Source: Syntrophobacteraceae bacterium
GTDB lineage: Bacteria; Desulfobacterota; Syntrophobacteria; Syntrophobacterales; Syntrophobacteraceae
Assembly: GCA_013314815.1 (NCBI GenBank)
Contig: JABUEY010000008.1
Location: 1 to 54,439 of the forward strand
Reading direction: 5' to 3'
Length of the DNA stretch: 54,439 nt
The notes below the pieces were generated by a model. The model was given only the letters and a program-made list of their open reading frames with translations. It searched no databases and was not told where the DNA came from. Below, piece after piece: positions 3-19,584 of the stretch. The translations under genes and the position numbers were made by a program. The first letter of the stretch is position 1. The number at the start of each line of letters is the position of its first letter.

Positions 3-1562
3 GCTGCGGACGGCCTGGCGCGTGTGACAGGTCGGCCCCAGGTCTGCATAGCGCAGAACGGACCGGGTGTGACCAACTTTGTATCTGCAATCACGGCTGC
101 ATATTGGGCGCATTCCCCCGTGGTGGCCATCACTCCTGAAACGGGATCCATGGGGATTGGGACGGGGGGGTTCCAGGAATTGGACCAACTGCCCATGTTT
201 CATGAGCAGACGGTATACCAGGTGAGGGTTAACCGCGCCGAAAGGATGGCTGAATTGGCAAGGCGGGCCTTTTTTATGGCAAAGAATCTTAACGGGCCGA
301 CGCAGTTGAATATCCCTCGAGACAACTTCTACGGGGAACTCGAAGCGGAAATCTATGGGACGAAGGTGATCCCGCGGGGTGTCGGATCCAGGGATGCTCT
401 CGAGGATGCCGCATGGCTGCTCGCCGAAGCCACATATCCCGTCATTCTGGCCGGCGGGGGCGTGTCCCAGGGCAATGCGCTGGACGAGGTCAGGGCGGTG
501 GCCGAGTACCTGACGGCCCCTGTTGTCAACAGCTACCTGCACAATGATTCCTTCCCCCAGGAACATCATCTCGCATTGGGTCCCATCGGCTACTGTGGAT
601 CCAAGGCGGCCATGCGAACGCTGGCAAAAGCGGACGTGGTGATTGCACTGGGTTCCCGGCTCGGACCTTTCGGCACACTTCCCCAATACGGGATCGACTA
701 CTGGCCCGAGAAGGCCAAGATCATCCAGGTCGATGTCGATCCTCGAGTACTGGGGTTGAGCAGGAAGGTCGAAGTGGCTTCCTGTGCTGATGTGAAGGAA
801 TACGCAGCCGAACTGTTGAGAGTGCTTCGCCTGATGAAGCCGGACCTGGATGTGAACAAGGAGCGTTTGAAGGACATCGACAACGAGAGGAAGACCTGGG
901 CCGATGAACTCGACAGCTGGTCCCAGGCCACGGGAAAACCGATGCATCCGCGGCGCTTCCTTCGAGAGCTTTCCCTGGCCATCCCGAAGGGGAGCATTGT
1001 CGCTACGGACATCGGCAACAACTCATCCATGTGCAATGCCTACTTCAAGTTCAACGGGATACGCCAGCACATTTCGGCCCTTTCCTGGGGAAACTGCGGC
1101 TTTGCCTTTGGAGCCGCCATGGGGGCAAAAATAGGCAGACCGGATACTCCTGTTTTCGCTTTTCAGGGCGACGGCGCATACGGCATCAGCGGGATAGCGG
1201 AAGTCATGACGGCTGTGCGGGAAAATATCCCGATCATTGCCGTTGTTGCCAACAATCTCGAATGGGGCGCGGAAAAGAAGAACCAGATCGACTACTACAA
1301 CAATCGATTTGTGGGAAGCAACCTCTCGGAGAACCCGGATTACGCGGAGCTGGCAAAGGCAATGGGGGCGAACGGATACAAGGTCGAGGATCACAGGGAT
1401 ATTGGCGACGTGGTGCGCGAGGCGGTTGCGTCGGGGAAGCCGTGCGTCATCAATGCAATGATTGAAGGAGGGGAGAGGGTGCTTGCGGAACCGTTCAGAC
1501 GGGACGCCCTGAAGAAGCCTGTCCGCCTTCTGGATAAATACAGGCACTTGAACGTGGATTAA
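3..1562 (+). CDS. xsc: Sulfoacetaldehyde acetyltransferase (5' end outside window)
   Basis: ThDP-dependent enzyme that converts sulfoacetaldehyde plus phosphate into acetyl phosphate and sulfite in the cytoplasm; it is the desulfonation step of C2-sulfonate degradation. The reading frame is open to the left edge, so about 60 N-terminal residues are missing; 519 residues are visible against a usual total near 580-600. A GTG at 24 is internal, because family-like residues (AADGLARV) precede it. Seen: the N-terminal block IAQNGPGVTNF, the PETGSMGIGTGGFQE block typical of Xsc rather than acetolactate synthase, and the ThDP motif GDGAYG...VVANN near the C-terminus. The acetate kinase at 19607 would use its product. 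No taurine aminotransferase or isethionate enzyme is in view. Family assignment is strong; the native substrate source is inferred. Confidence 0.93.
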   Translation, partial: AADGLARVTGRPQVCIAQNGPGVTNFVSAITAAYWAHSPVVAITPETGSMGIGTGGFQELDQLPMFHEQTVYQVRVNRAERMAELARRAFFMAKNLNGPTQLNIPRDNFYGELEAEIYGTKVIPRGVGSRDALEDAAWLLAEATYPVILAGGGVSQGNALDEVRAVAEYLTAPVVNSYLHNDSFPQEHHLALGPIGYCGSKAAMRTLAKADVVIALGSRLGPFGTLPQYGIDYWPEKAKIIQVDVDPRVLGLSRKVEVASCADVKEYAAELLRVLRLMKPDLDVNKERLKDIDNERKTWADELDSWSQATGKPMHPRRFLRELSLAIPKGSIVATDIGNNSSMCNAYFKFNGIRQHISALSWGNCGFAFGAAMGAKIGRPDTPVFAFQGDGAYGISGIAEVMTAVRENIPIIAVVANNLEWGAEKKNQIDYYNNRFVGSNLSENPDYAELAKAMGANGYKVEDHRDIGDVVREAVASGKPCVINAMIEGGERVLAEPFRRDALKKPVRLLDKYRHLNVD

Positions 1563-1720
1563 GGCAGCTCCGCCGCCACTGCCGCGATTAGCCCGAAAGG
1601 CGCCGACGACTTCACCGGACGCCTGTTCGGACTCACGCGGCGCCCGCGTCTGTGCTGTGCGACCCGGAAGCCCCCGGCAGCCGCGATTTCCGATCATGCA
1701 ACCATTTCACGAGGTCTCCC

Positions 1721-3925: not shown

Positions 3926-4002
3926 AGCCCAGATCAGCCGCGGCCTGCATTTCGGCAGTTCGAACGAAAGGTATGGAACCCGAAGAACCAGGATCTCAAG
4001 AA

Positions 4003-4512
4003 ATGAAAATCATTCACGTAAGCAGGAATTTCAAGACGCAGGATGTGGATGTGAACACGTTCGACCAGGACGAACCCGTACTGATGGTCGACCTGGACAG
4101 ATGCATCTGCTGCGGATCGTGCCAGTATGCATGCAGGATCGAACATGCCGGCGGGGATGTTCAGGCAGGCAGGCCTCGATCCATCCCCGTAGCGGTGAAA
4201 CACGGCGAATCAGCGAAAAGGACCATGCATCTGCCGCTCTCGTGCAGGTACTGCAATTCTCCGTGCCCCTACTACAGCCTGTACAACTTCTGGACAACCT
4301 GCCCGGCAGGGTTCGAATCGCCGGACCAGGCGGATGCCTGTGACTCCTGTGTCGAAAGGCTGGGAAAGGGCTTCATGCCCGCCTGTGCCACGCGATGCAC
4401 CATGAAATGCATCTACTTCGGATACCCTCGGGACATTGCATTTGTCCTGAATGAGAAAAGACTGAGAGAGATGGGCGACCTGGTCATCCGTGCCCTGGAT
4501 GGAGTGCGTTGA
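4003..4512 (+). CDS. DmsB/NrfC-type 4Fe-4S electron-transfer subunit
   Basis: Ferredoxin-like subunit of 169 residues that would carry electrons to or from the molybdopterin enzyme just upstream. Cysteine clusters visible in order: CICCGSCQYAC, CRYCNSPCPYY, and CDSCVERL followed by PACATRCTMKC. This is the four-cluster arrangement of DmsB-like subunits. An alternative ATG at 3973 would add 10 residues; I prefer 4003 because AGGA lies about 10 bases before it. No membrane anchor gene follows, so the pair probably works in the cytoplasm. Its stop overlaps the start of the next gene by one base, indicating translational coupling with the UPF0280 gene and a shared job. Confidence 0.87.
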   Translation: MKIIHVSRNFKTQDVDVNTFDQDEPVLMVDLDRCICCGSCQYACRIEHAGGDVQAGRPRSIPVAVKHGESAKRTMHLPLSCRYCNSPCPYYSLYNFWTTCPAGFESPDQADACDSCVERLGKGFMPACATRCTMKCIYFGYPRDIAFVLNEKRLREMGDLVIRALDGVR

Positions 4513-5258: not shown

Positions 5259-6584
5259 ATGTCTAAGAACGGAAAAACCATTTCCGAGATCAACGAGAAG
5301 CTCCAGAAGGGGGAAGCCGTTGTCATGACGGCGATGGAATTCAAGAAGGAAGTGAGATCGGGTTATAAATTCAAGGTTTCGGACGTGGATGTGGTAACGA
5401 CGGGCACCCGGGGAGTCATGTCCGGCACATCAGCAATGCTTGTAATCCCCCTGGGAGAAAAAGGCAGATCCGCTCGAGCTGAAAGGCTTTTCCTGAACGG
5501 AGTTCCCTGTATTCCGGTATGCAATCCCGAAGAGGATTCCGAACTGGTGGATGCCGTCATCTACGGGACTACGGAAAGCTGGGATCATCATGGGCGCTAC
5601 GGAGGCGGGCACGTATTGAGGGATCTCGTGGAAGGCAAAGAAGTTGAGGTGGAATGCCTCACCACCGAAGGCAGGACCGTCTATACGCGCATTACCCTGG
5701 AACAGATCAAGTTCGCCAGGCTGTATAATTTCCGCAATGATTTCCAGAATTACGTCGCGTTCAGCAATATCAGGAACATCAAGTCCTACCGGTTGAATCC
5801 CGCTTCGATCTTCTCCTGCCGCCCGATTCCGCTCCTGAAAGGTATTACCGCCAGCGGCAGCGGAGAGCTGAATCCACTGGAGAACGACCCGCACAGAACG
5901 GTGTTGAAGTCCGGGATGAAGATACTTCTCAACGGGTCGCCGGGGGTCATCATCGGGTACGGGACGCGCAGTACGCCCGCCAAGAAGGCCCTTTTCGTCG
6001 CGGGGGACATGTTCAGTATGGACCCTCAGTATATGGGCGGATTCAAGACCAGCTACGGAGTGGAAGTCACCAACGGCATTGCCGTCCCGTTTCCCATAAC
6101 GGACGAGAAGACTCTTGACGGTCTCTCCCGGTGCCTCGACGAAAATATTCCTCTTCCCGTGGCCGACCTGGCGGACAGGACCGCACTGTGCAATCTCACC
6201 TACGCCGATATCTGGGCCGGGGCGAAGCTGGAAGTGGAGTTCGATCCGGACCGGTGCATCTGCTGTTCATTTCAATGCCCCGCTGAATACTATTGTCCCA
6301 TGGGGGCGATATCGTGGAAGGACAAGCGCATCGACGAAAACCTGTGCGTCGCATGCGGAGCCTGCACAGCGAACTGCATGGGAGGTGCGTTCAAGGGCAA
6401 GGGTGACCTGCCGCGAGGTTCCCTGGGTTCGGTTCGCATCTTCGACCGGAACGTTCCCATCATATTCAGGCAGTCGAACCGGTACAGGGCCGAGAGGATC
6501 GCCACGTACCTCAAGGAACTCATGGAGAGAGGAGAATTTCTGCTCACCGATTCGGATATCGAGTTGACGCTCCGGAGCAAGTGA
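5259..6584 (+). CDS. DUF39 (HcyB/ComF-like) sulfurtransferase-family protein with two 4Fe-4S motifs
   Basis: A 441-residue protein: residues about 8-360 are a DUF39 domain and 335-400 carry two 4Fe-4S motifs (CICCSFQCPAEYYC; CVACGACTANC). DUF39 proteins include L-aspartate semialdehyde sulfurtransferase (HcyB) and, to my recollection, the methanogen enzyme ComF that makes coenzyme M from sulfoacetaldehyde and sulfide. The family landmark TTGT is present, but the following HcyB MCSSG cysteine is Ser here (VMSGTS, residue about 55), and the second HcyB cysteine position reads TVYTR. A Cys at about 133 (VECL) is shared with the paralogue at 7999. With xsc nearby I infer it acts on a sulfoacetaldehyde/CoM-type substrate, perhaps in the degradative direction. 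Good ribosome site GGGAG at 5247. Confidence 0.84.
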   Translation: MSKNGKTISEINEKLQKGEAVVMTAMEFKKEVRSGYKFKVSDVDVVTTGTRGVMSGTSAMLVIPLGEKGRSARAERLFLNGVPCIPVCNPEEDSELVDAVIYGTTESWDHHGRYGGGHVLRDLVEGKEVEVECLTTEGRTVYTRITLEQIKFARLYNFRNDFQNYVAFSNIRNIKSYRLNPASIFSCRPIPLLKGITASGSGELNPLENDPHRTVLKSGMKILLNGSPGVIIGYGTRSTPAKKALFVAGDMFSMDPQYMGGFKTSYGVEVTNGIAVPFPITDEKTLDGLSRCLDENIPLPVADLADRTALCNLTYADIWAGAKLEVEFDPDRCICCSFQCPAEYYCPMGAISWKDKRIDENLCVACGACTANCMGGAFKGKGDLPRGSLGSVRIFDRNVPIIFRQSNRYRAERIATYLKELMERGEFLLTDSDIELTLRSK

Positions 6585-6646: not shown

Positions 6647-8002
6647 ATGAAAGAAGAAAGAAAATCGCAGGTCGACGAGATCTTCGAGACCGAAGCAGGC
6701 AAGTGCATCGAATGCGGAAACTGCCTCTATTCGTGTCCTGTCTACCAGGAATCTTTCGATGAAAGGTTTGTGGCCAGGGGACGAAATCACCTCATCAGGG
6801 AATTGGGCCTGTATGGAAATTCGCTTTCCGGCTTTCAGGAAAAAGGCATTTTCGACAAATGCCTGCTCTGCGGACGATGTGTCTCGGCCTGCCCGAGGGG
6901 AGTAAGGAACGACCTGGTGGTCCTCGCTGCAAGGTCCGAACTGATCAGGCTCAACGGGCTTTCCCTGGGCAAGTCCATCGCCTTTGGGACCCTCATGGCG
7001 GACAAGGAGGCCATGAAGAGGGCGGTCCGTTTTGCATCGAGGTTCCAGTGGATGTTGCCTCTCACAAAACGTGAAAAGCGCAAAGACTTCGAGAAGGTAA
7101 TACGCGAGTCGTCGAAAGTGCGGCATATTCCCAACTTTTTTCTGGGAGCCGCCGCCGGCAGACAGATCCCATCCATTGCGCGGGATTTTTTGAGCGACAC
7201 GGTGGTGGAGCGCAACCCCGGCGTTCCCCGAGAGGAAAGCCCGAAACTGCGGGTTGCCTACTTCTCGGGTTGCGCCACCGAGTTCGTCTTGCCTCACGTC
7301 GGCCGATCCCTCATCTCTTTACTCAACTCGGCGGGGGTCGAGGTTATATTTCCCAAGAACCAGGGCTGCTGCGGCATAGCCATGCAGGCCAACGGAGATA
7401 TCCAAACGGCCAAAGCGGCGGCCCTGAACAATTTCGAGATCTTTTCCGCACTGGACGTCGACATGGTGGTCACCGGCTGTGCCACCTGCGGTTCCACCCT
7501 GAAGGAAGGGTGGAGCAACCTGTTCACAGGCGATCCTCGCCAGCAGGATTTTCAGGAATTTGCGGAAAAGGTCAGGGACATTTCCGAGTTGTTGATCGAC
7601 CTGGCCGACACCGGGCGAATGCAGTTCTGTTCCGTGCTTCCGCCCGGTACGCGCGTGACCTATCACGACCCCTGTCACCTTTCCCGTTATCAAGGCATCA
7701 CCGAACAACCCAGAAGGATTCTGCGCCAGGCTTTCGAAAAGGATTTCATCGAGATGGACGAGAGGGGCTGCTGTGGATGCGGCGGCTCTTTCAGTCTTCA
7801 TAGCTATGAACTGTCCAGGCGAATAGGAAAGGAAAAAATCGACTCCATCGAGCGCACCGGCGCAGACTTGGTCGTGAATACCTGCCCCGGATGCATGATC
7901 CAGCTCGTGGATGGAATCGAGAGGCGCCGCCTGCCGCAGAAGGTGCTTCACCTGGTCGAGGTCGTTAAGCCCATGAAGGAAAACCGCGGGGGTGGCAGAT
8001 GA
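6647..8002 (+). CDS. HdrD/GlcF-like Fe-S oxidoreductase with two CCG domains
   Basis: A 451-residue electron-transfer protein. The N-terminus has two 4Fe-4S motifs (CIECGNCLYSCP and CLLCGRCVSACPRG). The rest holds two cysteine-rich CCG domains: the first includes FSGCATE, NQGCCGIA and GCATCG, the second YHDPCHLS, ERGCCGCGGSF and NTCPGC. In heterodisulfide reductase HdrD/HdrB such domains bind the noncubane cluster that reduces a disulfide of coenzyme M and coenzyme B; related proteins serve glycolate or lactate oxidation. Lying between two DUF39 genes, it is a natural redox partner for a thiol or persulfide reaction. A TTG at 6623 with GAGGT before it is an alternative start adding 8 residues. 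It overlaps the next gene by four bases (ATGA). Confidence 0.88.
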   Translation: MKEERKSQVDEIFETEAGKCIECGNCLYSCPVYQESFDERFVARGRNHLIRELGLYGNSLSGFQEKGIFDKCLLCGRCVSACPRGVRNDLVVLAARSELIRLNGLSLGKSIAFGTLMADKEAMKRAVRFASRFQWMLPLTKREKRKDFEKVIRESSKVRHIPNFFLGAAAGRQIPSIARDFLSDTVVERNPGVPREESPKLRVAYFSGCATEFVLPHVGRSLISLLNSAGVEVIFPKNQGCCGIAMQANGDIQTAKAAALNNFEIFSALDVDMVVTGCATCGSTLKEGWSNLFTGDPRQQDFQEFAEKVRDISELLIDLADTGRMQFCSVLPPGTRVTYHDPCHLSRYQGITEQPRRILRQAFEKDFIEMDERGCCGCGGSFSLHSYELSRRIGKEKIDSIERTGADLVVNTCPGCMIQLVDGIERRRLPQKVLHLVEVVKPMKENRGGGR

Positions 8003-8889
8003 CCGGAAGTAGAAAGCGCGTTTCGGAAATCAACGAAAGGATACTGGCCGGGAAGGCTTCGGTATACACGGAAGAGGACCTGTTGAAGCACCTGGAGAAG
8101 AATGACGACTCCGTCCTCCGGCATGCGGATGTCGTCATCATGTCATTCAGCAGCAGCATATCCGGAGCGGCGGCTATGCTCCTTGTTCCCGTGGCGGGCC
8201 GGGGCTCCTTCACACGTGCGAAAAGCATCCGGCTGGACGGCGTTCCCGGTTACCCGGGGCCTGCTCCGAACGAACGCCTCGGCATCGTGGACAGCCAGGT
8301 ATTTGCCGATCAGAGGGTGGATAACTGGTCCAACGGACTGCTTCCAGGCAAAAAACTGCTGACCGATGTGCTCGAAAACAGGGAAATCCAGGTGGAATGT
8401 CTTTCCCAGGAAGAGGATGACTATCGGAGTTCCTTCGTCACAAGGGAGCTCGAGTACGCAAGAATGGTCACATATAACACATTCATTCCACACACAAGAA
8501 TCAATGAAACATCCAATTCGCATCTGAAAACCATATGCGTCGGAAGCAAGATCCTTCTCAACGGATCAGTCGGAATTGTAGTGGGCGCTGGAACAAGGAA
8601 TGGTTTTAGAAAGAAATCTCTTTCATTATCTGCTGAACTATATGAGATGAATCCAAGCATTATAACAGTAGAAAACGATGATGTGAAATTATCGATTGTC
8701 ATTCCTATACCGGTCATAGATGACCTGGTATGGAATGATTTACTCAACTATTTAAGAGCCATGAAATATTCGGATATTTCCCATTACATGAATGTGAATG
8801 ATTTGAACATGGCTCGATGGATGAAGGACCAGATGAAGCAGGGCCGGTTCAAACTAAACGACTCGTCCAATTTTCCCATCAGCTGGTGA
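7999..8889 (+). CDS. Second, shorter DUF39-family protein without Fe-S domain
   Basis: A 296-residue paralogue of the protein at 5259, starting within the stop of the HdrD-like gene (ATGA). It shares SEINE near the N-terminus, a DGVPGYPG block, VECL (Cys about 134) and KILLNGSVGIVVGAGTRN, but lacks the ferredoxin tail and the GGGH segment. The TTGT landmark is changed to MSFSSS, so the usual catalytic region of HcyB is not conserved. The last 450 bases or so are visibly richer in A+T than the flanking genes and carry rarer codons, suggesting faster divergence or a different origin. It may form a heteromer with the longer DUF39 protein. Function unknown beyond the family. Confidence 0.75.
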   Translation: MTGSRKRVSEINERILAGKASVYTEEDLLKHLEKNDDSVLRHADVVIMSFSSSISGAAAMLLVPVAGRGSFTRAKSIRLDGVPGYPGPAPNERLGIVDSQVFADQRVDNWSNGLLPGKKLLTDVLENREIQVECLSQEEDDYRSSFVTRELEYARMVTYNTFIPHTRINETSNSHLKTICVGSKILLNGSVGIVVGAGTRNGFRKKSLSLSAELYEMNPSIITVENDDVKLSIVIPIPVIDDLVWNDLLNYLRAMKYSDISHYMNVNDLNMARWMKDQMKQGRFKLNDSSNFPISW

Positions 8890-8957: not shown

Positions 8958-9938
8958 ATGAGACGGACGGCGAAGCGATGTGGATGGGTAGTGGCGGTGG
9001 TTTTTCTGTGTGTTTTGGGACTGAATGCACAGGCAGACGCGCAAAAGAAGAAGATTCACTTCGGGTACCTGGTGGCGGACCAGCTCCACAGCCCCGCGGT
9101 AATGATCATGAAGGAAAAGAAGCTGCTGGAGGCTGAGGGGTTTGAGGTTTCGTGGGGCGAGTTTCTTGCCGGGTCGTATCTTATGCAGCACATGACATCG
9201 GGGGAGGTCGACTTCGGAAGCTGCGGATCTGTTCCGGCGATGATCACCCGGGGGCAGGGAGTGGATGTGGTCATCCTTGCCAGTGCAAACACGGAGGGAT
9301 CCAGCATGGTGGTCAAGGACTCCATCCAGTCTCCGAAGGCCCTGGACGGAAAGAGTCTCGGTACCCCGGGCATCGGATCGATCCAGGACGCGATGGTCGA
9401 CATGGTGGCAAAAAAACATGACATCAAGATCGCTCACAAGTTCATGAAAGTCTCCGATATGCCCATTTTTCTTCAGAAGGGGGAAATCGACGGCTTTATC
9501 GCCTGGGCGCCCCATCCCGCGCGAGCCGTCGACCTGGGCTACGGGCACCAGATCCTTACATCGCACGATATCCTCCCCGACCACCAGTGCTGCGTGCTGG
9601 TGACCAAGGGAGAGATGCTCAAGAAGAACCCGGAGACGGCCCGAAAGGTGCTCCAGGTCTATCTGAAAGCGTACGAGTGGTTCCTGGCGAACCAGGATGA
9701 ATCCGTTGAAATAATGGTCAGGGTCACGGGCATGAAAGAAGAAGTAATCAGGGAGGCCATGAAAACGGTGAAGTATCCGTTCCCGCCGTTCTGCAACGTT
9801 CCGAGTCTGAAGCTGATGGTCGACGGACTCGTGGAGAGCGGGAAGATTCAGAAGGGCAACATCACCAGCGTGGACAATTTCATCAGCGACCTGTACCAGC
9901 CCGCTCTCCTGGAGGAACAGGTGGGTAAGAAGCAGTAG
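8958..9938 (+). CDS. ABC transporter substrate-binding protein, sulfonate/nitrate (NMT1/SsuA-like) family
   Basis: A 326-residue periplasmic binding protein with a clear Sec signal peptide: positively charged RRTAKR, a hydrophobic VVAVVFLCVLGL core and a probable cleavage near AQADA. The mature part matches the SsuA/TauA/NMT1 family (HFGYLVADQLHSPAVMI near the N-terminus; EVDFGSCGSVPAMITRG; TPGIGSIQD). A strong AAAGGAG precedes the ATG at 8958. It opens the importer set that continues with one permease and two ATPases. The family takes up organosulfonates, nitrate or aromatic acids; next to xsc a C2 sulfonate is the most likely ligand, which is inference. Confidence 0.88.
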   Translation: MRRTAKRCGWVVAVVFLCVLGLNAQADAQKKKIHFGYLVADQLHSPAVMIMKEKKLLEAEGFEVSWGEFLAGSYLMQHMTSGEVDFGSCGSVPAMITRGQGVDVVILASANTEGSSMVVKDSIQSPKALDGKSLGTPGIGSIQDAMVDMVAKKHDIKIAHKFMKVSDMPIFLQKGEIDGFIAWAPHPARAVDLGYGHQILTSHDILPDHQCCVLVTKGEMLKKNPETARKVLQVYLKAYEWFLANQDESVEIMVRVTGMKEEVIREAMKTVKYPFPPFCNVPSLKLMVDGLVESGKIQKGNITSVDNFISDLYQPALLEEQVGKKQ

Positions 9939-9952
9939 AACCCGGTTCTCAC

Positions 9953-9989
9953 CCGGTGAACGGGGTTGAACACCACGGCCGTTCACCGG
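9953..9989 (+). promoter_or_regulatory. Intergenic stem-loop between binding protein and permease
   Basis: A perfect 11-bp inverted repeat (CCGGTGAACGG at 9953-9963, CCGTTCACCGG at 9979-9989) with a 15-base loop, lying in the 88-base gap. There is no T run after it, so it is not a typical terminator. Such hairpins after binding-protein genes commonly protect the 3' end of the upstream message and lower expression of the permease; that role here is inferred. Confidence 0.6.
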
Positions 9990-10026
9990 ATCCCAATTCG
10001 AACGGATCAAGGCAGGGAGCTTCACG

Positions 10027-10818
10027 ATGAACGACAAACAGAAGGAACAAGTCAAGACGGTCTTATACAACATACTCAGCCTGATCGTCGTTGCCGTGCT
10101 GTGGACCCTTTTCTCTGCGTGGCAGCAGTCCCCCTTTTTCCCGCCTCCGGCTGATATCTGGAAGGCGTTTGTCGGGCTGGCTACCCAGGGAGATATCGAA
10201 GGGATAAGCCTGGCCAGGCACATCTGGGCAAGCCTGATCCGGATTTTTGCGGGGTTCGCGGCCGCCTGCGCGCTGGGGATCCCCCTGGGTCTTGCCATGG
10301 GTCTCTGGCCCAGAATGTACAACCGGACCCGGGCCGTTCTCGAGCCCATAAGGTTTATTCCTCCCATTGCATGGATTCCCATGGCCATCGTTCTCCTGGT
10401 CGGGTTTTCGCGGTACGCGTTTCTGATCTGGCTTGGAGCCTTCTTCCCGATCTTCATTACGACCCTGCTCAGCGTGACCCGGGTCAATCCCGTGCATGTC
10501 AATGTCGCAAAGGTCTTTGGTGCGAGCCGGTCCTATATCATCCGCAAGATTGTCATACCTTCGGTGCTGCCTGACATCGCGACGGGCATGCGCGTGGGTC
10601 TGGGAATAGCATGGATGTGTATCGTGGCTGCCGAAATGATCGGAGGGGAGATGATCGGCGTCGGGCGGCTCATTTTGAAGTATGCGGAACTGATCAGAAT
10701 GGGCGAGATCATTGTTGGAATGCTGGTCATAGGAATCATCGGCTTTCTTATGAATGAAATCTTCATCGTTGTTGAAAAGAGAGTGTTTCGTTGGAGATCG
10801 GAAGTATCCATCGATTAG
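10027..10818 (+). CDS. ABC transporter permease, sulfonate/nitrate (SsuC/TauC-like) family
   Basis: A 263-residue inner-membrane permease with about six hydrophobic segments. It starts with a cytoplasmic stretch followed by IVVAVLWTLFSAW, and the cytoplasmic EAA loop is seen as AKVFGASRSYIIRKIVIPSVLPDI. This belongs to the BPD_transp_1 permeases of SsuC/TauC type. The ATG at 10027 is preceded by GGCAGGGAG. It is the only permease gene here, so a homodimer is expected, served by two different ATPases encoded downstream. Substrate as for the binding protein: probably an organosulfonate. Confidence 0.9.
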   Translation: MNDKQKEQVKTVLYNILSLIVVAVLWTLFSAWQQSPFFPPPADIWKAFVGLATQGDIEGISLARHIWASLIRIFAGFAAACALGIPLGLAMGLWPRMYNRTRAVLEPIRFIPPIAWIPMAIVLLVGFSRYAFLIWLGAFFPIFITTLLSVTRVNPVHVNVAKVFGASRSYIIRKIVIPSVLPDIATGMRVGLGIAWMCIVAAEMIGGEMIGVGRLILKYAELIRMGEIIVGMLVIGIIGFLMNEIFIVVEKRVFRWRSEVSID

Positions 10819-10826
10819 GAGACCAA

Positions 10827-11567
10827 ATGGACAGCCCGCTTCTCGATGTAAGCATGAGCAAGAGTTTTGGGAAGATCGATGTCCTGAGGGACATCAGGTT
10901 CAGAGTCAGGCCCAACGAGTTTCTGGTCGTTGTAGGACCGACAGGATGCGGCAAGACCACCCTGGGCAACATACTCTCCGGGATCGATAAGCCGACGTCA
11001 GGCCACGTCAGGATCATGGGCGAGGATGTGAATCCCCACATCCACAATATTTCCTACGTGCTCCAGGAACCATCCTGCATCCCCTGGTACACCATGATGC
11101 AGGATGTGACCATGGGCCTGGAGATCCGGGGTGTGGGACGTGCCGAGGCGGTTTCGCGAGGAAGCGAGGTCATCAAACTGGTCGGCCTGGAAGGATATGA
11201 GAACTACTACCCGTGGCAGATCTCGGGAGGCATGAAACAGCGGGTTGCCATCGCAAGGGCCTATGCGACAAGCCCGGATCTGCTGATCATGGACGAACCT
11301 TTCGGGCACCTCGATGCCCAGACGCGTTACCTCATGCAGATCGAGATCATGAGAATCTGGGAACAGGACAGGAAGACCGTTGTGTTCATTACGAACAACA
11401 TCGAGGAGGCGGTCTACCTGGCGAGCAGGATCCTGGTGCTGACGAAGCTCCCCGCAACGATCAAGAAGGAGTATGTCGTTGATATTCCGAGGCCTCGAGA
11501 TCTTACCGATGAGAGGTTCCTCGAGGTCCGGGCGGAGATCACTCAGCAATGCGAGATTGTGGAATGA
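10827..11567 (+). CDS. ABC transporter ATP-binding protein (SsuB/TauB-like), first copy
   Basis: A 246-residue ATPase with Walker A GPTGCGKTT, Q-loop LQEPSCIPW, signature ISGGMKQRVAIARA and Walker B LLIMDEPFGHLD. The EEAVYLASRILVLT segment after the H-loop position (here NNIEEA, where His is replaced by Asn) is typical of the sulfonate/nitrate family except for that change. I chose the ATG at 10827 with TAGGAG before it; a TTG at 10791 would overlap the permease. It lies 8 bases after the permease stop. The Asn in place of the switch histidine hints that this copy may be the weaker ATPase in a heterodimer with the next one. Confidence 0.9.
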   Translation: MDSPLLDVSMSKSFGKIDVLRDIRFRVRPNEFLVVVGPTGCGKTTLGNILSGIDKPTSGHVRIMGEDVNPHIHNISYVLQEPSCIPWYTMMQDVTMGLEIRGVGRAEAVSRGSEVIKLVGLEGYENYYPWQISGGMKQRVAIARAYATSPDLLIMDEPFGHLDAQTRYLMQIEIMRIWEQDRKTVVFITNNIEEAVYLASRILVLTKLPATIKKEYVVDIPRPRDLTDERFLEVRAEITQQCEIVE

Positions 11568-11585
11568 ACAGACGAAGGAAATCTC

Positions 11586-12335
11586 ATGTCCGCCAAAAAG
11601 CCGAAAATTACCATCAAGAACCTGAGTAAGTACTTCGATGACCTCGTGGTCCTCGACGATATCAGCTTCGACATCTACGATGGAGAATTCCTCTGCGTGG
11701 TCGGACCGACAGGATGCGGAAAGACCACCTTCTGCAACGTGGTCACCAGGCTGCTGCCGTCCACCAAGGGCTCGGTGACCGTGGGGGCGGAAGCCATCGA
11801 TTTCAAAAAGCACAACGTTTCGTTCATCTTTCAGGAGCCTTCTTGCCTGCCCTGGCGAACAGTTTGGGACAACGTCAAGATCGGACTGGAGATCAAAGGC
11901 TATCCGGAACCGGAAATCAGGGAGCGGGTACAGAATGTGCTCGAGATGACAGGGCTGACCCCTTTCAAGGACTTCTTTCCCAACCAGATCTCCGCCGGGA
12001 TGAAGCAGCGGGTGGCCATTGCCAGGGCCTTTGTCACGGAACCGGACATGCTGCTCATGGACGAACCCTTCGGCCAGCTCGACACGAGCACCCGTTTCAG
12101 CATCGAAAACAGCCTGGTCAGGCTCTGGGAGAAAACGAAACAGACAGTGATCTTCGTGACACACAACCTTGAAGAAGCCGTGTACCTGTCGGAACGAATA
12201 CTGGTGCTCACCCAGAAGCCTACGAAGATCAAGAGCGAGGTGGGGGTACAGCACCTTCTCCACCCGCGCGACATCGCAGACCCCGAGTTTGTGAGGATCA
12301 GGCGCCAGGTGACGGATCTGGTGAGGTGGTGGTGA
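11586..12335 (+). CDS. ABC transporter ATP-binding protein (SsuB/TauB-like), second copy
   Basis: A 249-residue ATPase clearly related to the gene just upstream. It has Walker A GPTGCGKTT, Q-loop FQEPSCLPW, signature ISAGMKQRVAIARA (second signature Gly changed to Ala), Walker B LLMDEPFGQLD and an intact switch His in FVTHNLEEAVYLSERILVLTQ. Together with the first copy, which lacks the switch His, it probably forms an asymmetric ATPase dimer in which each subunit supplies part of the sites. AAGGAAA precedes the start. Part of the importer operon. Confidence 0.9.
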   Translation: MSAKKPKITIKNLSKYFDDLVVLDDISFDIYDGEFLCVVGPTGCGKTTFCNVVTRLLPSTKGSVTVGAEAIDFKKHNVSFIFQEPSCLPWRTVWDNVKIGLEIKGYPEPEIRERVQNVLEMTGLTPFKDFFPNQISAGMKQRVAIARAFVTEPDMLLMDEPFGQLDTSTRFSIENSLVRLWEKTKQTVIFVTHNLEEAVYLSERILVLTQKPTKIKSEVGVQHLLHPRDIADPEFVRIRRQVTDLVRWW

Positions 12336-12414
12336 TTCAGGCCGGAAATGGAAGCGACGCTTGTTCGAATTTCCCGGCTGCGGGTCCACCGGATGTGATC
12401 GAAAAGGGAGTTTT

Positions 12415-13458
12415 ATGAAGCCGAAAGAACGATTCCTGAGACGTCTCAAGGGGCAGGATGTGGACAAAGTCCCGGCAGGGTGCACAACGGCATACGGCGT
12501 CGTGGACCTTATGAAAAGGTGCGGCTGCGAAAGGCCTCTTGCGGATGTGGACCCCGCCTGCATGGCCGGACTCTCCATGGCCGGCCATACGATCGCGGGG
12601 TTTGACTGGGTCAAGGCCATGGGGTGGGATATAACGGCTGTCAGCGAGGCTCTGGGATGCACTCTCGGGGAGCCGGCCATTGACTCGCAATACTATATCG
12701 CGTCGCATCCCTTTGCTCAATCCATCGAAAACCTCGAATGCCCTCGGGACCTGTTGAGTCGTGGAAGATTTCCTGCCTACCGGGAGCAGTTCCGGCTGCT
12801 CAAGGAAAAGGTCGGCAATGACCTGGTGATCTTCGGGATGTCGGAAGGACCTTTCACCTGTGCTGCAAACCTCGTGGGAACCGACCGGATGATGCGGGCG
12901 ACCATCAAGGAACCCACCTTCGTGGAAAAGGCCCTCGATGTCACTGCCGAGGCTCTGATCCAGGTTATCCGCTTCGCCTTCAGCAACGGTGCGGACTATT
13001 TCTGTATGGCCGATCCCACATCGGGCGGCGACCTGCTGAGTCCGAAGAGCTGGGAACGGATCGTGAGCCCGGTGATCCGAAGGATTGTCAACGCCGTCGA
13101 CGGACCCATAGTTCTGCACATCTGCGGCAATATCGACAAGATCATCCCTTCCATGTGTGAAACCGGCATTGTGGGAATCAGCCTGGAAGAAAAGACCGAT
13201 CTGAAGGCGGCGATCGAGACTGCGAGAGCCAGGGGGGTCAGGGTGTTCGGAAATGTCGCAGCCGCGTCCACACTTTTCATGGGGACCGAGGAGGATTGTT
13301 ACCGGGAGGCCATGGCAGCACTCGAGAGTGGAGTCGACTTCCTGGCCCCGGGATGCGGCATAGCGCCGAATTCGCCTCTCGAAAACGTCCTGCAACTGAG
13401 GAGGGCTCGTGACGATTTCCACCAGGATAAGCAGGCTGGACGGCCGGAATCAAGCTGA
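12415..13458 (+). CDS. MtaA/MtbA-like methylcobamide:coenzyme M methyltransferase homologue (UroD family)
   Basis: A 347-residue UroD-fold methyltransferase. It keeps the zinc ligands of MtaA/MtbA at the expected spacing: His about 235 and Cys about 237 (LHICGN) and Cys about 314 (APGCGI). The N-terminus KERFLRRLKGQ and the segments MAGLSMAGHTIAG and FGNVAAASTLFMG also match this subfamily. Known members move a methyl group between a corrinoid protein and coenzyme M thiolate. In a bacterium with xsc and DUF39 genes, the reverse reaction (demethylation of methyl-CoM or a similar thioether sulfonate onto the corrinoid protein encoded next) is a reasonable proposal. Start ATG 12415 follows AAGGGAG. 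Family assignment strong, direction and substrate inferred. Confidence 0.86.
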   Translation: MKPKERFLRRLKGQDVDKVPAGCTTAYGVVDLMKRCGCERPLADVDPACMAGLSMAGHTIAGFDWVKAMGWDITAVSEALGCTLGEPAIDSQYYIASHPFAQSIENLECPRDLLSRGRFPAYREQFRLLKEKVGNDLVIFGMSEGPFTCAANLVGTDRMMRATIKEPTFVEKALDVTAEALIQVIRFAFSNGADYFCMADPTSGGDLLSPKSWERIVSPVIRRIVNAVDGPIVLHICGNIDKIIPSMCETGIVGISLEEKTDLKAAIETARARGVRVFGNVAAASTLFMGTEEDCYREAMAALESGVDFLAPGCGIAPNSPLENVLQLRRARDDFHQDKQAGRPESS

Positions 13459-13617
13459 TGGACTCCATGCCGCGGCGACGGACACGAGATGGCGCTGCGT
13501 ATCCTCGAATGGTCCGGCTCCAAACGAAACGGAAGGCTTTTGGCACGGCGGTCGAGCATTCCGAAAGGCAGGACCGCCTCGACACATGAATGTGAAAACC
13601 CTCGGAGGGAACTTCCT

Positions 13618-14271
13618 ATGCTGCCTCTGGAAGAAATACTGAAGAAATTACACGATGCGGTGGTCGGCTTTGACGAAGCGGGAGCGGCACAGGCTGCCCG
13701 GCTGCTGATAGAGGGAGGGTACGATCCCCTGGAAGGCATTATGCACGGCCTGTCCACGGGCATGGATACGGTGGGAGCCCTCTTCAAGCAGCAGGAATAT
13801 TTCGTCCCCGAAGTGCTCTTGTGCGCCGAAGCGATGAACGCCGGGATGGAAGTACTTCGACCGCACCTGCAGGCCTCAAGCACCCGCACACTGGGAACAA
13901 TCATCCTCGGTACGGTGCAGGGTGACGTTCATGACATCGGGAAGAACATCGTAAAGATGATGCTGGAGATCGGCGGCTTCGACGTGCATGACCTGGGCAA
14001 CAATGTGCCCCACAAGAGGTTCGCCGAGGAACTGGCACGCACCGATGCAGATCTCGTCGGCGTTTCCGCAATGATGACGACCACTATGATGGGCATGCGG
14101 AGCCTTATCGGAATGGTAAAAGAAACGAAACCTCATGTCGGGGTTCTCATTGGAGGTGCGCCGGTGACCAGGGAGATCGCCAAGATGTTCAATGCCGACG
14201 GATATGCCGACTCGGCCGCCGACGTGGTGGGCGAGGCAAAAAGAGTCATGGCTGCCGTGAAAAGCGCCTGA
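13618..14271 (+). CDS. Corrinoid protein of a methyltransferase system (MtaC/MtbC-like)
   Basis: A 217-residue B12-binding protein. Residues 1-85 are the helical cap domain (QAARLLIEGGYDPLEGI, EVLLCAEAMNAGM) and about 95-217 the cobalamin-binding Rossmann domain with the base-off/His-on motif DVHDIG and the later GGAPVT segment. It would carry the methyl group between the two UroD-type methyltransferases that flank it. The start at 13618 has GGAGGGA seven bases before it; upstream in-frame sequence is not family-like. A 159-base gap separates it from the MtaA-like gene, without a recognisable signal. Confidence 0.93.
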   Translation: MLPLEEILKKLHDAVVGFDEAGAAQAARLLIEGGYDPLEGIMHGLSTGMDTVGALFKQQEYFVPEVLLCAEAMNAGMEVLRPHLQASSTRTLGTIILGTVQGDVHDIGKNIVKMMLEIGGFDVHDLGNNVPHKRFAEELARTDADLVGVSAMMTTTMMGMRSLIGMVKETKPHVGVLIGGAPVTREIAKMFNADGYADSAADVVGEAKRVMAAVKSA

Positions 14272-14346: not shown

Positions 14347-15387
14347 ATGTCGAAGAAAATGCTTATTGAAGCACTTCGCTGCAACCGAACACCCAGGGCA
14401 CCGTGGTTTCCTTATGCGTGCATCAATTGCGCGTACCTCCTGGGTGAGACGGCCGACAGGTATCTGCAGGACCCGGAACTCATCGCAAAAGGCGTCGAAG
14501 CAGCCGCGAAAAGATACCGGGCGGATGGAATTCCGCTCGTCTTCGACCTTTCCGTCGAAGCCAACGCAGTGGGATGTGAACTGAGCTGGTGGCCGGACAA
14601 TGTTCCTTCCGTCGCGACTCACCCCTGTGCGCAGATGGTCTCGCCCAGGCAGCTCGGCCTCAAGCTTCCGACAAAAGACTCAGGAAGATGGCCCGTTCTG
14701 CTCGAGGCGGGAAAACTCGCAAAACCTCGACTCGATGCACTGGATTGCGCAATGGTCGGTTTGTACTGCGGCCCCCTCACCCTCGCCTCACACCTGGCTG
14801 GAGTGCGCATTTTTACGGATTTCTATAAGAATCAGGAGTTTGCTCATGAAGTCCTGGAGTTCGCAGCGGAGGTGAACGCGGTCTCGGCGGCCTTCTACGC
14901 GGAACTGGGATGTGAGGTGATCGGAATCGTTGACCCGGTGGCGTCCCAGGTCAAATCGGCGACTTTCAGGGAATTCGTGACTCCCTACGTGCAGAAGGGC
15001 ATCCAGGTCATTCACGATGCCGGTGCGACTTCCATGTTCCTCATCTGTGGGGACTGTACCAAGGTGATGGAAGAGGTGTGTACCATCGGAACTCAAAGCT
15101 TTGCCATCGATGAGCAGCTGAACCTCGGCTACGTGCGTGATATGGCTCTGCGGCATCGAGTCGGATTTGCAGGCAATCTGAAGCTCACCCTGTCCCTCAG
15201 CCTCGGCGTGATTCCTCCACGCGAGGACGCACTGGTGAGCCTTGCCGCCGGCGGGACACACGGGTTCGTTCTGGCCCCTGGCTGAGACCTCCCCTACGAT
15301 GTTCCGGCGGAACACATCGACCAGGTCGTCCAGGCCATGGACAGTTTCTACGAAAACTACGCACCATATCCGGATTCTACATCCTGA
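14347..15387 (+). CDS. Selenocysteine-containing UroD-type corrinoid methyltransferase (TGA at 15283 read as Sec)
   Basis: A 346-residue UroD-family methyltransferase if the in-frame TGA at 15283-15285 is read as selenocysteine. Up to that codon there are 312 residues ending LAPG; after it the frame continues DLPYDVPAEH and on to a second TGA at 15385. LxPG-C-xxP is where this family has its C-terminal zinc-ligand Cys (compare APGCGI in the paralogue at 12415), so Sec replaces exactly that residue, and the full length (346) matches the paralogue (347). The upstream ligand motif reads LICGD (Leu 232, Cys 234) instead of HICG. A hairpin lies 12 bases after the TGA. It probably moves the methyl group to or from the neighbouring corrinoid protein. 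A sequencing error or a nonsense mutation is the alternative. Confidence 0.8.
15298..15318 (+). promoter_or_regulatory. Candidate bacterial SECIS hairpin downstream of the UGA codon
   Basis: Starting 12 bases after the UGA, GAUGUUCC (15298-15305) can pair with GGA-ACAUC-like sequence at 15309-15318 around a GGC loop, with two bulged bases on the 3' side. The loop guanines are about 21 bases after the UGA, within the range of bacterial SECIS elements read by SelB. Hand-folded; a folding or bSECIS search would be decisive. Confidence 0.55.
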
Positions 15388-15406: not shown

Positions 15407-15805
15407 ATGGTCGACAAAAAAATCCGAATAGACGTGCTTACCCTGGACAGTGTGCAGTGTGCGGCGTGCGGTTACATGATGGAATCCATCGCCGCTCTGC
15501 CCGATGACGTCCAGGGCATGATCGAATACAGGGAATGGCCCATAAAAACCAAGGAAGGCATTGCCAGGTTCATGGAATTGAAGGGAAAGGTGCTGCCGAC
15601 CATATGCATCGAGGGAGATCCCGTTTTTGCGAGCTGTATTCCCCAGTACGAGGAGCTCATCGAGGAGATGGCCAGAAGAGCCCCCAGCCCCGAAGCGGCG
15701 GAAAAACTCATGGCACTGCGGCATGTGGGCTTTCAGTTCGACAAGGTGGGAGAGAACCTGAAAAAGGCTGGATCGGGATTGAATACCCGGGAAGGTCAGA
15801 AATAA
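15407..15805 (+). CDS. Thioredoxin-fold protein with CAAC motif
   Basis: A 132-residue small protein. The start ATG at 15407 follows GAAGAGGAAAGA and lies 19 bases after the true stop of the selenoprotein gene. The N-terminal 85 residues look like a thioredoxin fold: a beta-strand IDVLTLDS, then VQCAACGYM with a CxxC pair (about 15-18), and a KVLPTICIEGDPVF segment with a cis-Pro-like LPT. Proteins of this kind often sit in methyltransferase clusters; a role in keeping a thiol, selenol or cobalt partner reduced is plausible but not shown. The C-terminal 40 residues are charged and unassigned. Confidence 0.7.
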   Translation: MVDKKIRIDVLTLDSVQCAACGYMMESIAALPDDVQGMIEYREWPIKTKEGIARFMELKGKVLPTICIEGDPVFASCIPQYEELIEEMARRAPSPEAAEKLMALRHVGFQFDKVGENLKKAGSGLNTREGQK

Positions 15806-15860: not shown

Positions 15861-16883
15861 ATGCAGGATACCATCGACATCGTCCTTCTCACGGGTTTTC
15901 TGGGCAGCGGCAAGACCACGTTCTTGAATCGCCTGGTCGAAGTCATGCCCCGGGAGTACCGGGTTGTGATTCTGATGAACGAATTCGGAGAAATCGGAAT
16001 CGATGCCTCGATTGTGAAGGGGGATGACCACGAGATCCTCGAGATCAACAAGGGGTCCATCTTCTGTGTGTGCGTCAAGACGGATTTCATCAGGACGATG
16101 CACAGGATTGCCTGTGATTTGAGGCCGGACGTGCTGGTCATCGAATCCACCGGTGTGGCCAATCCCGGGGATCTCAGGCGGGACCTCTCTCTTTCCGTCT
16201 TCCAGAACCGGTTTTCCCTGATCGAGCAGATCTGCATCGTCGACGCGGTGAACTTCGAAGACGCCTACAACGCATTTTCATCGGTGGAGAAGCAGATCGA
16301 GTCTTCCACGCTGTTCATCATCAATAAAGCGGACCAGGCATCAGCTGACAGAATCCGACGGGTCAGGGAGATCGTTTCCCAGCATCATCCTTCACCGGTG
16401 TTTGTCGAGTCGGTGTTCTGCGGGATCGATTTCGATCGTCTGCTGTCCAAACTGCGTCCTCCAGGACAGGAAAGGGAGTATTCGTTCGATGCGGGAAGGA
16501 CGGGAGGGAGTCTGACTCCCGACGAACTGGATCAGATCGTCGACGGAATGCTCTCGGATCCCTTCAGGCAGATCAGCCGGCCCGATCTTCTCGTGTCCGC
16601 TGCCTATGCCTGGCATGGCGGAAGCACGGAGGAGTTCTCGAAGGTTCTCCAGGATTTGCCTCGAGGCATCGTGAGAGGCAAGGGCTTTGTATCGGATTGC
16701 GGCAGAACGTACCTGGTGAACCTGGTTATGGAGCAGTGGGAACTGGAAGAAGTCGACCTGTCCAATGATCGAATGCATCCGCTTGACAGGCTGGTTTTCA
16801 TATTTCCGCCCGAATTGACGAACGCCGTCGACGAGGTCACGGCCAGGCATGGTCAGCTGGAAAAGCTCACCGGAGGCAGTTGA
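15861..16883 (+). CDS. CobW/COG0523-family GTPase
   Basis: A 340-residue G3E-family P-loop GTPase. Visible motifs: Walker A GFLGSGKTT (about 12-20), switch/Walker B region VLVIESTGVANP, and base recognition NKAD (about 154-157). The family metal motif GCxCC is altered to GSIFCVC, a variant with two cysteines. A C-terminal CobW domain contains WHGG and the terminal LVFI block. COG0523 proteins deliver metals or help load cobalamin-type cofactors; next to corrinoid methyltransferase and RACE genes a role in cofactor insertion or reactivation is likely. The next gene begins 6 bases after its stop. Confidence 0.85.
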   Translation: MQDTIDIVLLTGFLGSGKTTFLNRLVEVMPREYRVVILMNEFGEIGIDASIVKGDDHEILEINKGSIFCVCVKTDFIRTMHRIACDLRPDVLVIESTGVANPGDLRRDLSLSVFQNRFSLIEQICIVDAVNFEDAYNAFSSVEKQIESSTLFIINKADQASADRIRRVREIVSQHHPSPVFVESVFCGIDFDRLLSKLRPPGQEREYSFDAGRTGGSLTPDELDQIVDGMLSDPFRQISRPDLLVSAAYAWHGGSTEEFSKVLQDLPRGIVRGKGFVSDCGRTYLVNLVMEQWELEEVDLSNDRMHPLDRLVFIFPPELTNAVDEVTARHGQLEKLTGGS

Positions 16884-16889
16884 AGGGCA

Positions 16890-17588
16890 ATGATGGAGAC
16901 GGGACCATTGGTGAGGGGCGCTTTCGGGTCGAAGGCATGGAATACGGTTTTGCTTGGAGTCGTTCCGTTCGATCCCGATATTGAATCTCTTGCCTCCAGG
17001 CTCCGTGTGACACCCGACAACCCGCGCAGAAAAGAACTCGATGCAATGGTTCGAGATGCCGCAGCGATAGCCGCACCCAAGGCGTTCTATGGTTGGGCGC
17101 ACGTCGAACACCAGGGGGACGGCCAGGTCATGGTGGAAGGCGAAACCTTTGTCAGTCGAATGCTTCGATCCGCCTTGGGCGATGCTGAGGTTGTTCTTCC
17201 CTTTGTCGCCACTGCAGGAATTGAACTTCAGTCCTGGGCGGCCTCGGCATCGAGTCCTCTTCACGCGTACTGGTCGGACGTCATCATGGACGAAGCCCTG
17301 AGGTGTGCACTCACCGCCCTCGAAAGACATGTCGACGCAAGGGTCGGAGGCAGGAAAACCCGTTGCATCAAACCCGGCATTCCGGCGGATTGGCCGGTCA
17401 CCGAGCAGAGAAAACTTTTCGCTCTTCTTGGGAATATGAAGAAGGCGGTGGGAGTGGAGTTGACCGACGCGTGCCTGATGATTCCGCTTAAGACCGTCTC
17501 GGGTCTGAGATTCCAGACCGATTCGGAAGTGGAGGGCTGCACATGGTGCCCACAAAAGAACTGCCGCCACAGAAAAAATCCACCTTGA
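16890..17588 (+). CDS. Vitamin B12-dependent methionine synthase activation-domain protein
   Basis: A 232-residue protein resembling the stand-alone relatives of the MetH activation domain found in acetogens and other anaerobes. Seen: PFVATAGIELQSWA in the middle, MDEALRCALTALERHV, a RCIKPGIPADWPV block near the typical RxSPGYxxWP position, and a C-terminal GLRFQTDSEVEGC region ending CTWCPQKNC, a Cys-rich tail of this subgroup. The domain normally binds SAM and supports reductive remethylation of cob(II)alamin; here it probably helps reactivate the corrinoid protein together with the RACE protein that follows. Confidence 0.8.
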   Translation: MMETGPLVRGAFGSKAWNTVLLGVVPFDPDIESLASRLRVTPDNPRRKELDAMVRDAAAIAAPKAFYGWAHVEHQGDGQVMVEGETFVSRMLRSALGDAEVVLPFVATAGIELQSWAASASSPLHAYWSDVIMDEALRCALTALERHVDARVGGRKTRCIKPGIPADWPVTEQRKLFALLGNMKKAVGVELTDACLMIPLKTVSGLRFQTDSEVEGCTWCPQKNCRHRKNPP

Positions 17589-17715: not shown

Positions 17716-19584
17716 GTGTCCTCGAGAGAGATGAAACTCGATACCGGTATGGTTCGCATTGCCTTTCAGCCTTCAGGATGTCGTATCGCCACCGTGAGCG
17801 GGACGACCGTGCTGGCCTGTGCACAGAAAGCGGGGCTTGGGTTGAACGCGGATTGCGGCGGCATGGGCAGTTGCGGGCGCTGTCGAATCCAGGTCCAGCC
17901 GAATGCCCCTGTCAGTCCACCGAGTGAGCCGGAGTTCGAGTTGATGGGCGCGGGTGAACTTTCGGCCGGGTTGCGCCTGGCATGCCAGACCCGGGTGTTC
18001 GGCTCCACGAGCGTATATCTGCCTGCCGACTCCGTGTCCACCACTCAGCGGCTGCAGGTGGAAGGCCAGGGGACCGTCATTGACCCGGATCCGCCGACAA
18101 CGCTCTGTGAACTGTCGGTTCCCGGCGTCACTTCGGAACTGCCACGACCCGATTGGGAAAGATTGGCGGAGGAAGTGAAGGAGTCGGGTTTTGCCGAGCC
18201 GGGGCCTCCTCGTCTGCCGATACTCCAATCCCTGAACGACCTGCTGCGCATCGATGACGGCAGAGTCACCGTCGGGCTCCGAAACGACGGGATATCGTGG
18301 GTGCTGGCTCGGAATCGGCCCGTCCTCGGGCTGGCCGTTGACGTGGGAACGACAAAGATCGCAGGCTATCTTGTCGAACTGCGTTCCGGAAAGACTCTGG
18401 CTTCCGCTGCAAAGATGAACAGCCAGATCGCCCTGGGTGAAGACGTGATGACCCGGATTGCCTGCACGATCGAAAGGGAGGACGGCCTGGCAATCCTGCA
18501 CGAATGTGTTCTCGAAACAATCAACGATCTGGCCGTGGATCTGTGCAAAGAGGCTTCAAAGGCGGGGGATATCACCGGGACTCCGGAACCCGGCTGCATC
18601 GTCGAATGCGTGATGGTCGGCAACACGGTAATGCATCATTTCCTGCTGAACCTTCCCGTCGCGCAACTGGGAATGGCCCCGTTCGTTCCTGTTGTTTCGA
18701 GGGATCTTGATTTCAAGGCGGATCGTATCGGGCTTCATTTGAACGAAAACGCCAATGTCCATCTCCCTCCCAATGTCGCCGGCTTTGTCGGATCCGACCA
18801 TGTGTCCGTTCTGCTTGCCTCGGGAGTAAGCACAAGTTCTGAAACCGTGCTGGTGCTCGATGTCGGAACGAACACGGAGATAAGCCTCATCACCCGCAAC
18901 GGCATAACGACCTGTTCGGCCGCCTCGGGACCGGCCTTTGAAGGTGCGCACATCCAGTGCGGGATGCGCGCGGCGGAAGGGGCGATCGAGCGGATCAGGA
19001 TCAGGGGCCGGTCGATCGAGTGTACCACGGTGGGGGGATGCGCGCCCACCGGGATTTGCGGATCCGGGATTCTCGATGCGGTTGCACAGTTCAGGCTCCA
19101 CAATGTCATCGACCGGCACGGAGGCCTGAACGCGGACTCGCCGTTCGTGACACGCGGCGTGTACGGGCCGGAAATCCTGCTGGTTCCGGCGGCGCGGACC
19201 GGCCACGGAAGGGACATCGTCGTCGGTCGCAGGGACATCGGAAAGGTACAGTTGGCCAAGGGTGCAATCAGGTCCGGCATCCATATCCTTCTCGATGCGG
19301 CCCGTGTTTCTCCGGATGAGATCGAGAAGATCCTGATAGGAGGCGCTTTCGGAATGTACCTGGACATCGATAGTGCGATGTCGATAGGGATGCTCCCACG
19401 GCTCCCCGCAAATCGTTTTCGACAGATCGGCAATGCAGCGGGGGCAGGGGCGGTCCGGCTCCTGTTGTCACGCAGCCTCAGAAAGGATGCCGCTTCTCTG
19501 GCTGGAAGAATTCGACACCTGGAACTTGCGGGAACGCCGGGTTTTAGATCGACCTTCATTAACGCGCTTCGTCTGGAAACCTGA
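17716..19584 (+). CDS. RACE-type reductive activator of corrinoid proteins (2Fe-2S domain plus ASKHA ATPase, DUF4445)
   Basis: A 622-residue corrinoid reactivase. The N-terminus carries a plant-type 2Fe-2S motif (CGGMGSCGRC, with a later Cys in LACQT). A linker follows, then an ASKHA-type ATPase: VDVGTTKIAGYL at about 213, LDVGTNTEISLI at about 380, and the C-terminal GGAFGMYLDIDSA. Such proteins use ATP to drive reduction of inactive cob(II)alamin to cob(I)alamin in methyltransferase systems. I chose the GTG at 17716, which has GGAG eight bases upstream; the ATG at 17731 is the alternative. It completes the corrinoid module started at 12415. Confidence 0.92.
   Translation: MSSREMKLDTGMVRIAFQPSGCRIATVSGTTVLACAQKAGLGLNADCGGMGSCGRCRIQVQPNAPVSPPSEPEFELMGAGELSAGLRLACQTRVFGSTSVYLPADSVSTTQRLQVEGQGTVIDPDPPTTLCELSVPGVTSELPRPDWERLAEEVKESGFAEPGPPRLPILQSLNDLLRIDDGRVTVGLRNDGISWVLARNRPVLGLAVDVGTTKIAGYLVELRSGKTLASAAKMNSQIALGEDVMTRIACTIEREDGLAILHECVLETINDLAVDLCKEASKAGDITGTPEPGCIVECVMVGNTVMHHFLLNLPVAQLGMAPFVPVVSRDLDFKADRIGLHLNENANVHLPPNVAGFVGSDHVSVLLASGVSTSSETVLVLDVGTNTEISLITRNGITTCSAASGPAFEGAHIQCGMRAAEGAIERIRIRGRSIECTTVGGCAPTGICGSGILDAVAQFRLHNVIDRHGGLNADSPFVTRGVYGPEILLVPAARTGHGRDIVVGRRDIGKVQLAKGAIRSGIHILLDAARVSPDEIEKILIGGAFGMYLDIDSAMSIGMLPRLPANRFRQIGNAAGAGAVRLLLSRSLRKDAASLAGRIRHLELAGTPGFRSTFINALRLET

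Follow-up and report, generated by a model that had tools for sequence, protein, structure and literature searches.

An in-frame UGA at the ligand-cysteine column of a UroD/MtaA-superfamily protein points to a selenoprotein that is probably a corrinoid-linked methyltransferase

A gene of the UroD/MtaA superfamily in a Syntrophobacteraceae bacterium carries an in-frame UGA at the position of a conserved ligand cysteine, and comparison across genomes makes it almost certain that this codon is decoded as selenocysteine (Sec) by SelB and tRNA-Sec, aided by a hairpin just 3' of it. The explanation that best fits the data as a whole, and in which we have considerable confidence, is a Sec-decoded UroD/MtaA protein that would perform corrinoid-linked methyl transfer, using a Cys/Sec site on which a partner protein acts. 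Family membership, the identity of the ligand column, conservation of the UGA and linkage to the partner are established at the level of sequence comparison. The protein, called Sec-UroD here, does not appear in the prokaryotic selenoprotein inventory of May 2026 (PMC13188914), which contains families credited to the work of the Haft and Gwadz group; no model in NCBIfam release 20 fits it above cut-off, and literature text searches returned no report of a UroD/MtaA selenoprotein. We therefore regard it as a new selenoprotein family, a variant of the UroD-type methyltransferases, which would add one to the roughly 119 prokaryotic families and subfamilies listed in that inventory.

The gene occupies positions 14347-15387 on the forward strand of the window, that is, the whole stretch of 54,439 nucleotides that was analysed. 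A single TGA at 15283-15285 (codon 313) interrupts its frame, and a second TGA at 15385-15387 is the final codon, which gives a read-through product of 346 residues counting Sec313. This product matches the Pfam URO-D domain (PF01208) over its full length (residues 2-333, E 4e-45, 154.7 bits) and the crystallised methylcobalamin:CoM methyltransferase 4AY7 with an E value of 3e-27. A reading made earlier from the sequence only had noted that the TGA directly follows LAPG, that the frame then runs on through DLPYDVPAEH to its end, and that the resulting length resembles the 347 residues of a paralogue; inspection of the sequence confirmed each of these points. The paralogue is the MtaA-like protein at 12361-13458, with 347 residues counted from ATG 12415. 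It had also placed the TGA on the Cys of the paralogue's APGC motif, and alignment with both the paralogue and 4AY7 agrees. Since standard gene callers stop at UGA, the ligand residue of Sec-UroD would be lost from their predictions, which would give proteins of 311-312 residues.

The UGA is a conserved feature of the family. A search of 197 related genomes yielded six further close homologues (65-79% identity) with exactly one internal TGA each; two named Desulfobacterales MAGs were added to this set, and a phylum-wide profile search contributed three more TGA-containing genes (genomes G379, G263 and G212) and one without the TGA (G373). Counting the source gene, all 12 close orthologues, which come from several families, keep UGA at the codon 313 column, in each case with APG before it and D-[LMI]-P after it. 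G212 is a single-contig genome, 99% complete, which argues against an error of sequencing, binning or draft assembly. Cysteine occupies the same column in the G373 orthologue (TGT; 57% identity), in more distant homologues from G350 and G069 (TGC; 31-35% identity), in the MtaA paralogue and in 4AY7. The search for Cys/Sec pairs among homologues that had been suggested as a check thus found Sec in 12 and Cys in three of 15 rows. These 15 rows form one clade in a maximum-likelihood tree (support 100/99), where the Cys form of G373 groups among the Sec genes at a node compatible with either order of the Cys and Sec states. Selection points the same way: dN/dS is 0.09 upstream of the UGA and 0.15 downstream, and the latter value implies that translation continues into the 3' part and that this part is under constraint. 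UGA codons in three other UroD matches (G026, G112 and G075:C5) were also considered and proved to be ordinary terminators.

The sequence-only reading had further noted a hairpin with guanines in its loop, starting 12 bases past the TGA. A bSECIS-like hairpin of this kind is present at 15298-15318 (forward strand), with the core UGUUCC-GGC-GGAACA at 15300-15314 and the loop at 15306-15308; its stem begins 12-13 nt and its GGC loop lies 20 nt past the UGA. It is also conserved, comprising 6-7 bp in 11 of the 12 UGA genes with one mismatch in G212, a GGY loop and the consensus UGUUCC-GG[CU]-GGAACA formed from codons 318-322. G379 and G263 carry a version with shifted register (ACGUUC-CGGUCGA-GAACGU), in G212 the stem and loop read CUCC-GGC-GGAG and include one compensatory pair, which is the extent of the covariation, and the Cys orthologue G373 lacks the equivalent stem. 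Of the 1,709 TGAs that the two strands of the window contain, 2-3% are followed by a similar hairpin at the same distance, so that its presence in one sequence alone is weak evidence. The folding z-score at 15298-15318 is an unremarkable -0.92 and single-sequence values range from +0.13 to -2.4; in G212 and G379 the hairpin is not the best fold, and an Rfam search at the hairpin gave nothing credible. Because these z-scores are ordinary, the case for an RNA signal rests on conservation. Synonymous change in the gene reaches its minimum at codons 318-322, where none of 162 pairwise codon comparisons shows a synonymous difference, as against 0.556 (56%) on average for the gene, and a single codon is used in all eight sequences compared at 4/4 amino-acid-invariant columns inside the hairpin and at 5/155 outside.

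The machinery for Sec insertion, a search for which had also been proposed, is present in the source genome (G000). It encodes a tRNA-Sec with anticodon UCA on contig C232 (73 bits, with ARAGORN concurring), selB on C100, selA divided over the contig ends of C91 and C156, and two selD genes, the one on C33 having its own in-frame UGA (RAAG-U-AAKICPGDL). The second selD (L017, G000:C98:578-1504) lies within a 743-residue open frame without UGA. Several fdhA-type genes of this genome contain one in-frame TGA each. Among the genomes examined, tRNA-Sec was detected in 10 of 13, the drafts G001 and G101 and the Cys-form genome G350 giving none; selB was detected in 12 of 13, with no match in the draft G022, and selA in all eight genomes tested.

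Two other fates of the UGA have to be weighed against decoding as Sec. Termination, which would leave just a protein of 312 residues or a gene in decay, would be in keeping with the standard code and with a last codon that is likewise TGA; we consider it highly improbable, given that 12 genomes keep the UGA, that purifying selection extends past it, that a stop would cut off the conserved ligand column together with the C-terminal stretch of URO-D, and that the single-contig G212 speaks against a draft-assembly error. The UGA might instead be read as Cys by a selC*/selB* system of the kind described for Syntrophobacterales and Desulfobacterales (PMC7609411). Contig C208 of the source genome (L072, about 1020-4301) matches this arrangement: ahead of a second SelB it carries a tRNA-Cys(GCA) that the tRNA-Sec model also picks up. 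Matches to the tRNA-Sec model on C208 and C131 were not retained as tRNA-Sec, as ARAGORN calls them tRNA-Cys(GCA) and tRNA-Trp. Insertion of Cys at UGA by such a system would need the opal anticodon UCA on the tRNA-Cys; the C208 tRNA has GCA, an anticodon that does not pair with UGA, and this locus therefore does not explain the Sec-UroD gene. Moreover, six genomes carrying the gene (G001, G021, G075, G101, G193 and G263) have a single SelB match each, and the source genome has the canonical tRNA-Sec(UCA), which together make decoding as Cys by such a pair exceedingly unlikely.

The neighbourhood connects Sec-UroD to corrinoid chemistry. The gene forms part of a same-strand run (forward) that includes an SsuA/TauC-like ABC importer (8958-12335; binding protein, permease and two ATPases), followed by the MtaA-like paralogue, which has the normal HICG...APGC residues (12361-13458, likely start ATG 12415; NF004889, 311 bits against a cut-off of 244), and an MtaC/MtbC-like corrinoid protein (13489-14271; TIGR02370 at 190.8 bits, below the cut-off of 215.3, with Pfam B12-binding domains over cut-off). 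Downstream of Sec-UroD come a thioredoxin (Trx)-like protein of 132 aa with a CAAC motif (15407-15805), a CobW/COG0523-type metal-chaperone GTPase (15861-16883; PF02492), a protein similar to the MetH activation domain (16890-17588; PF02965, 27.5 bits) and a RACo/RACE-type reductive activator of corrinoid proteins (17716-19584; PF14574 and PF17651). The corrinoid-partner context is MtaA-like in G000, G001 and G021, MtmB-like in G212 and G069, and UroD plus MtrH in G101, G193, G263, G379 and G373; a CobW-type GTPase is found in many of the clusters. The Trx-like gene directly follows Sec-UroD in every Sec genome with a visible neighbourhood, and in G350 and G069 the Cys-form protein carries the Trx-like domain as a C-terminal fusion, which is good evidence that partner and UroD enzyme work together. 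A search for the partner in the Cys orthologue genome G373 did not detect it.

Paralogues of the partner containing UGA were found in genomes G022, G075, G101 and G263. In-frame TGAs were located at L057:15911-16180, L059:5446-5709, G101:C16, G101:C255, G022:C15 and G263:C153, and in L057 and L059 they fall on the first Cys of CxxC (QUIAC and QUAAC). These paralogues are probably selenoproteins in their own right.

Two further products of the wider cluster (24-20902, forward strand) exceed their cut-offs: the sulfoacetaldehyde acetyltransferase Xsc, at 741 bits, and a methanogenesis-marker-16/CoM-synthase-like protein (5259-6584), at 399 bits. Another protein of the latter kind, at 7999-8889, is shorter. 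Besides the sulfonate-type importer and MtaA, the cluster also encodes an acetate kinase. These genes might together form a pathway by which a sulfate reducer breaks down coenzyme M or methyl-CoM, in which import would be followed by demethylation and conversion to sulfoacetaldehyde, then to sulfite and acetyl phosphate, and finally by ATP formation. In Methanosarcina, MMP16 acts in the biosynthetic direction (PMC12068725).

The active site of Sec-UroD departs from that of its relatives at a further position. Leu-Ile-Cys (residues 232-234; 15040-15048, forward strand) replaces the His-x-Cys zinc motif, the HICG of relatives reading LICG; Cys234 is invariant in 15/15 members, and the His position holds Leu or Phe in all 15, being Phe in the Cys orthologues. 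The earlier observation of a changed His was therefore correct; the change is no consequence of Sec, since the Cys forms share the loss, and it follows the clade. Cys141, present in 14 of 15 rows, is by alignment a further candidate position. Sec-UroD thus lacks the full His-x-Cys...Cys zinc triad of MtaA/CmuA-type methyltransferases; its best NCBIfam match, TIGR01463 (MtaA/CmuA), reaches 140.6 bits, under the cut-off of 235.4, and its identity to the MtaA-like paralogue of the window is about 25%. The selenolate may ligate zinc or cobalt, as the sequence-only reading suggested; canonical zinc binding, though, should not be assumed with the His missing, and this loss counts against an ordinary zinc site. 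AlphaFold modelling of four sequences gave a poor result (pLDDT 55), and the geometry of the site accordingly rests on alignment.

In UroD-family S-methyltransferases, a His-Cys-Cys zinc site activates a soft nucleophile (PMC10418091). As a member of a corrinoid methyl-transfer operon, Sec-UroD would have (Leu/Phe)-Cys234-Sec313 in place of this site, usually with Cys141 as an additional candidate. The methylated corrinoid protein and a soft S or Se nucleophile would be the two parties between which a methyl group passes; the Cys/Sec pair, probably metal-bound in this scheme, may activate the nucleophile, while the adjacent CxxC protein would probably keep the pair reduced or present a thiol. 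Going by sequence and gene context, corrinoid-linked methyl transfer is the likely activity, and the chances that the Cys/Sec site binds a metal appear about even. We advance more tentatively, as a real possibility, that the methyltransferase uses Sec directly, at a Cys-Sec site without His and with a Trx-like partner, the selenolate being the metal ligand or the methyl-carrying nucleophile; if true, Sec would have a novel role in one-carbon chemistry.

In the main competing reading, Sec would serve a metal-free redox or nucleophilic centre. Either the Trx-like partner would reduce a Cys234-Sec313 selenenylsulfide or Sec itself would be methylated, and the UroD scaffold would then support a reductase or a carrier of methyl groups on selenolate. 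The missing His ligand in all 15 members and the linkage or fusion to a CxxC domain would both suit such a centre, and CdmB provides the precedent of a UroD-family methyltransferase working without zinc (PMC13222342). However, the corrinoid context, the conserved APG-C/U column, which supplies a zinc ligand in related enzymes, the CobW-type GTPase in many clusters and the Cys orthologue in G373 without a Trx partner all count against it, and we judge it rather unlikely. Under the preferred reading of a corrinoid-linked methyltransferase, Sec occurs in a superfamily in which the replaced Cys is a thiol-activating zinc ligand, and the natural Cys orthologues, together with the fused or adjacent redox partner, make the role of selenium in methyl-transfer chemistry testable.

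Sec-UroD has the URO-D domain, the APG-C ligand column and an adjoining corrinoid protein in common with the MtaA/MtbA methylcobamide:CoM methyltransferases (4AY7), from which it differs by Sec for the second Cys, Leu/Phe for His and a family score below cut-off. The Mlp and SdmABC corrinoid systems for methyl selenides and methyl sulfides likewise combine UroD-family methyltransferases with a corrinoid protein in selenium-metabolising anaerobes; unlike Sec-UroD, their enzymes almost always keep His-Cys-Cys, and Sec has not been reported in them (PMC10418091, PMC11097638). The Trx-like partner is a weak relative of the HUIPC-motif Trx-like selenoprotein (NF047660; 30.4 bits, cut-off 105), with CAAC in place of UxxC. 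The ABC transporter close to Sec-UroD is similar to SaoX, SaoP and SaoA of the selenocysteine-assisted organometallic (SAO) system of Haft and Gwadz, with scores below the respective cut-offs (SaoP 143/295, SaoA 200/360 and SaoX 59/300 bits); its segment at 10791-12335 encodes two different ATPases and one permease, and each ATPase has SaoA as its top match, again short of the cut-off. No UroD protein is among the SAO selenoproteins in PMC13188914. What the SAO system shares with the proposal made here for Sec-UroD is that Sec is tied to organometal chemistry.
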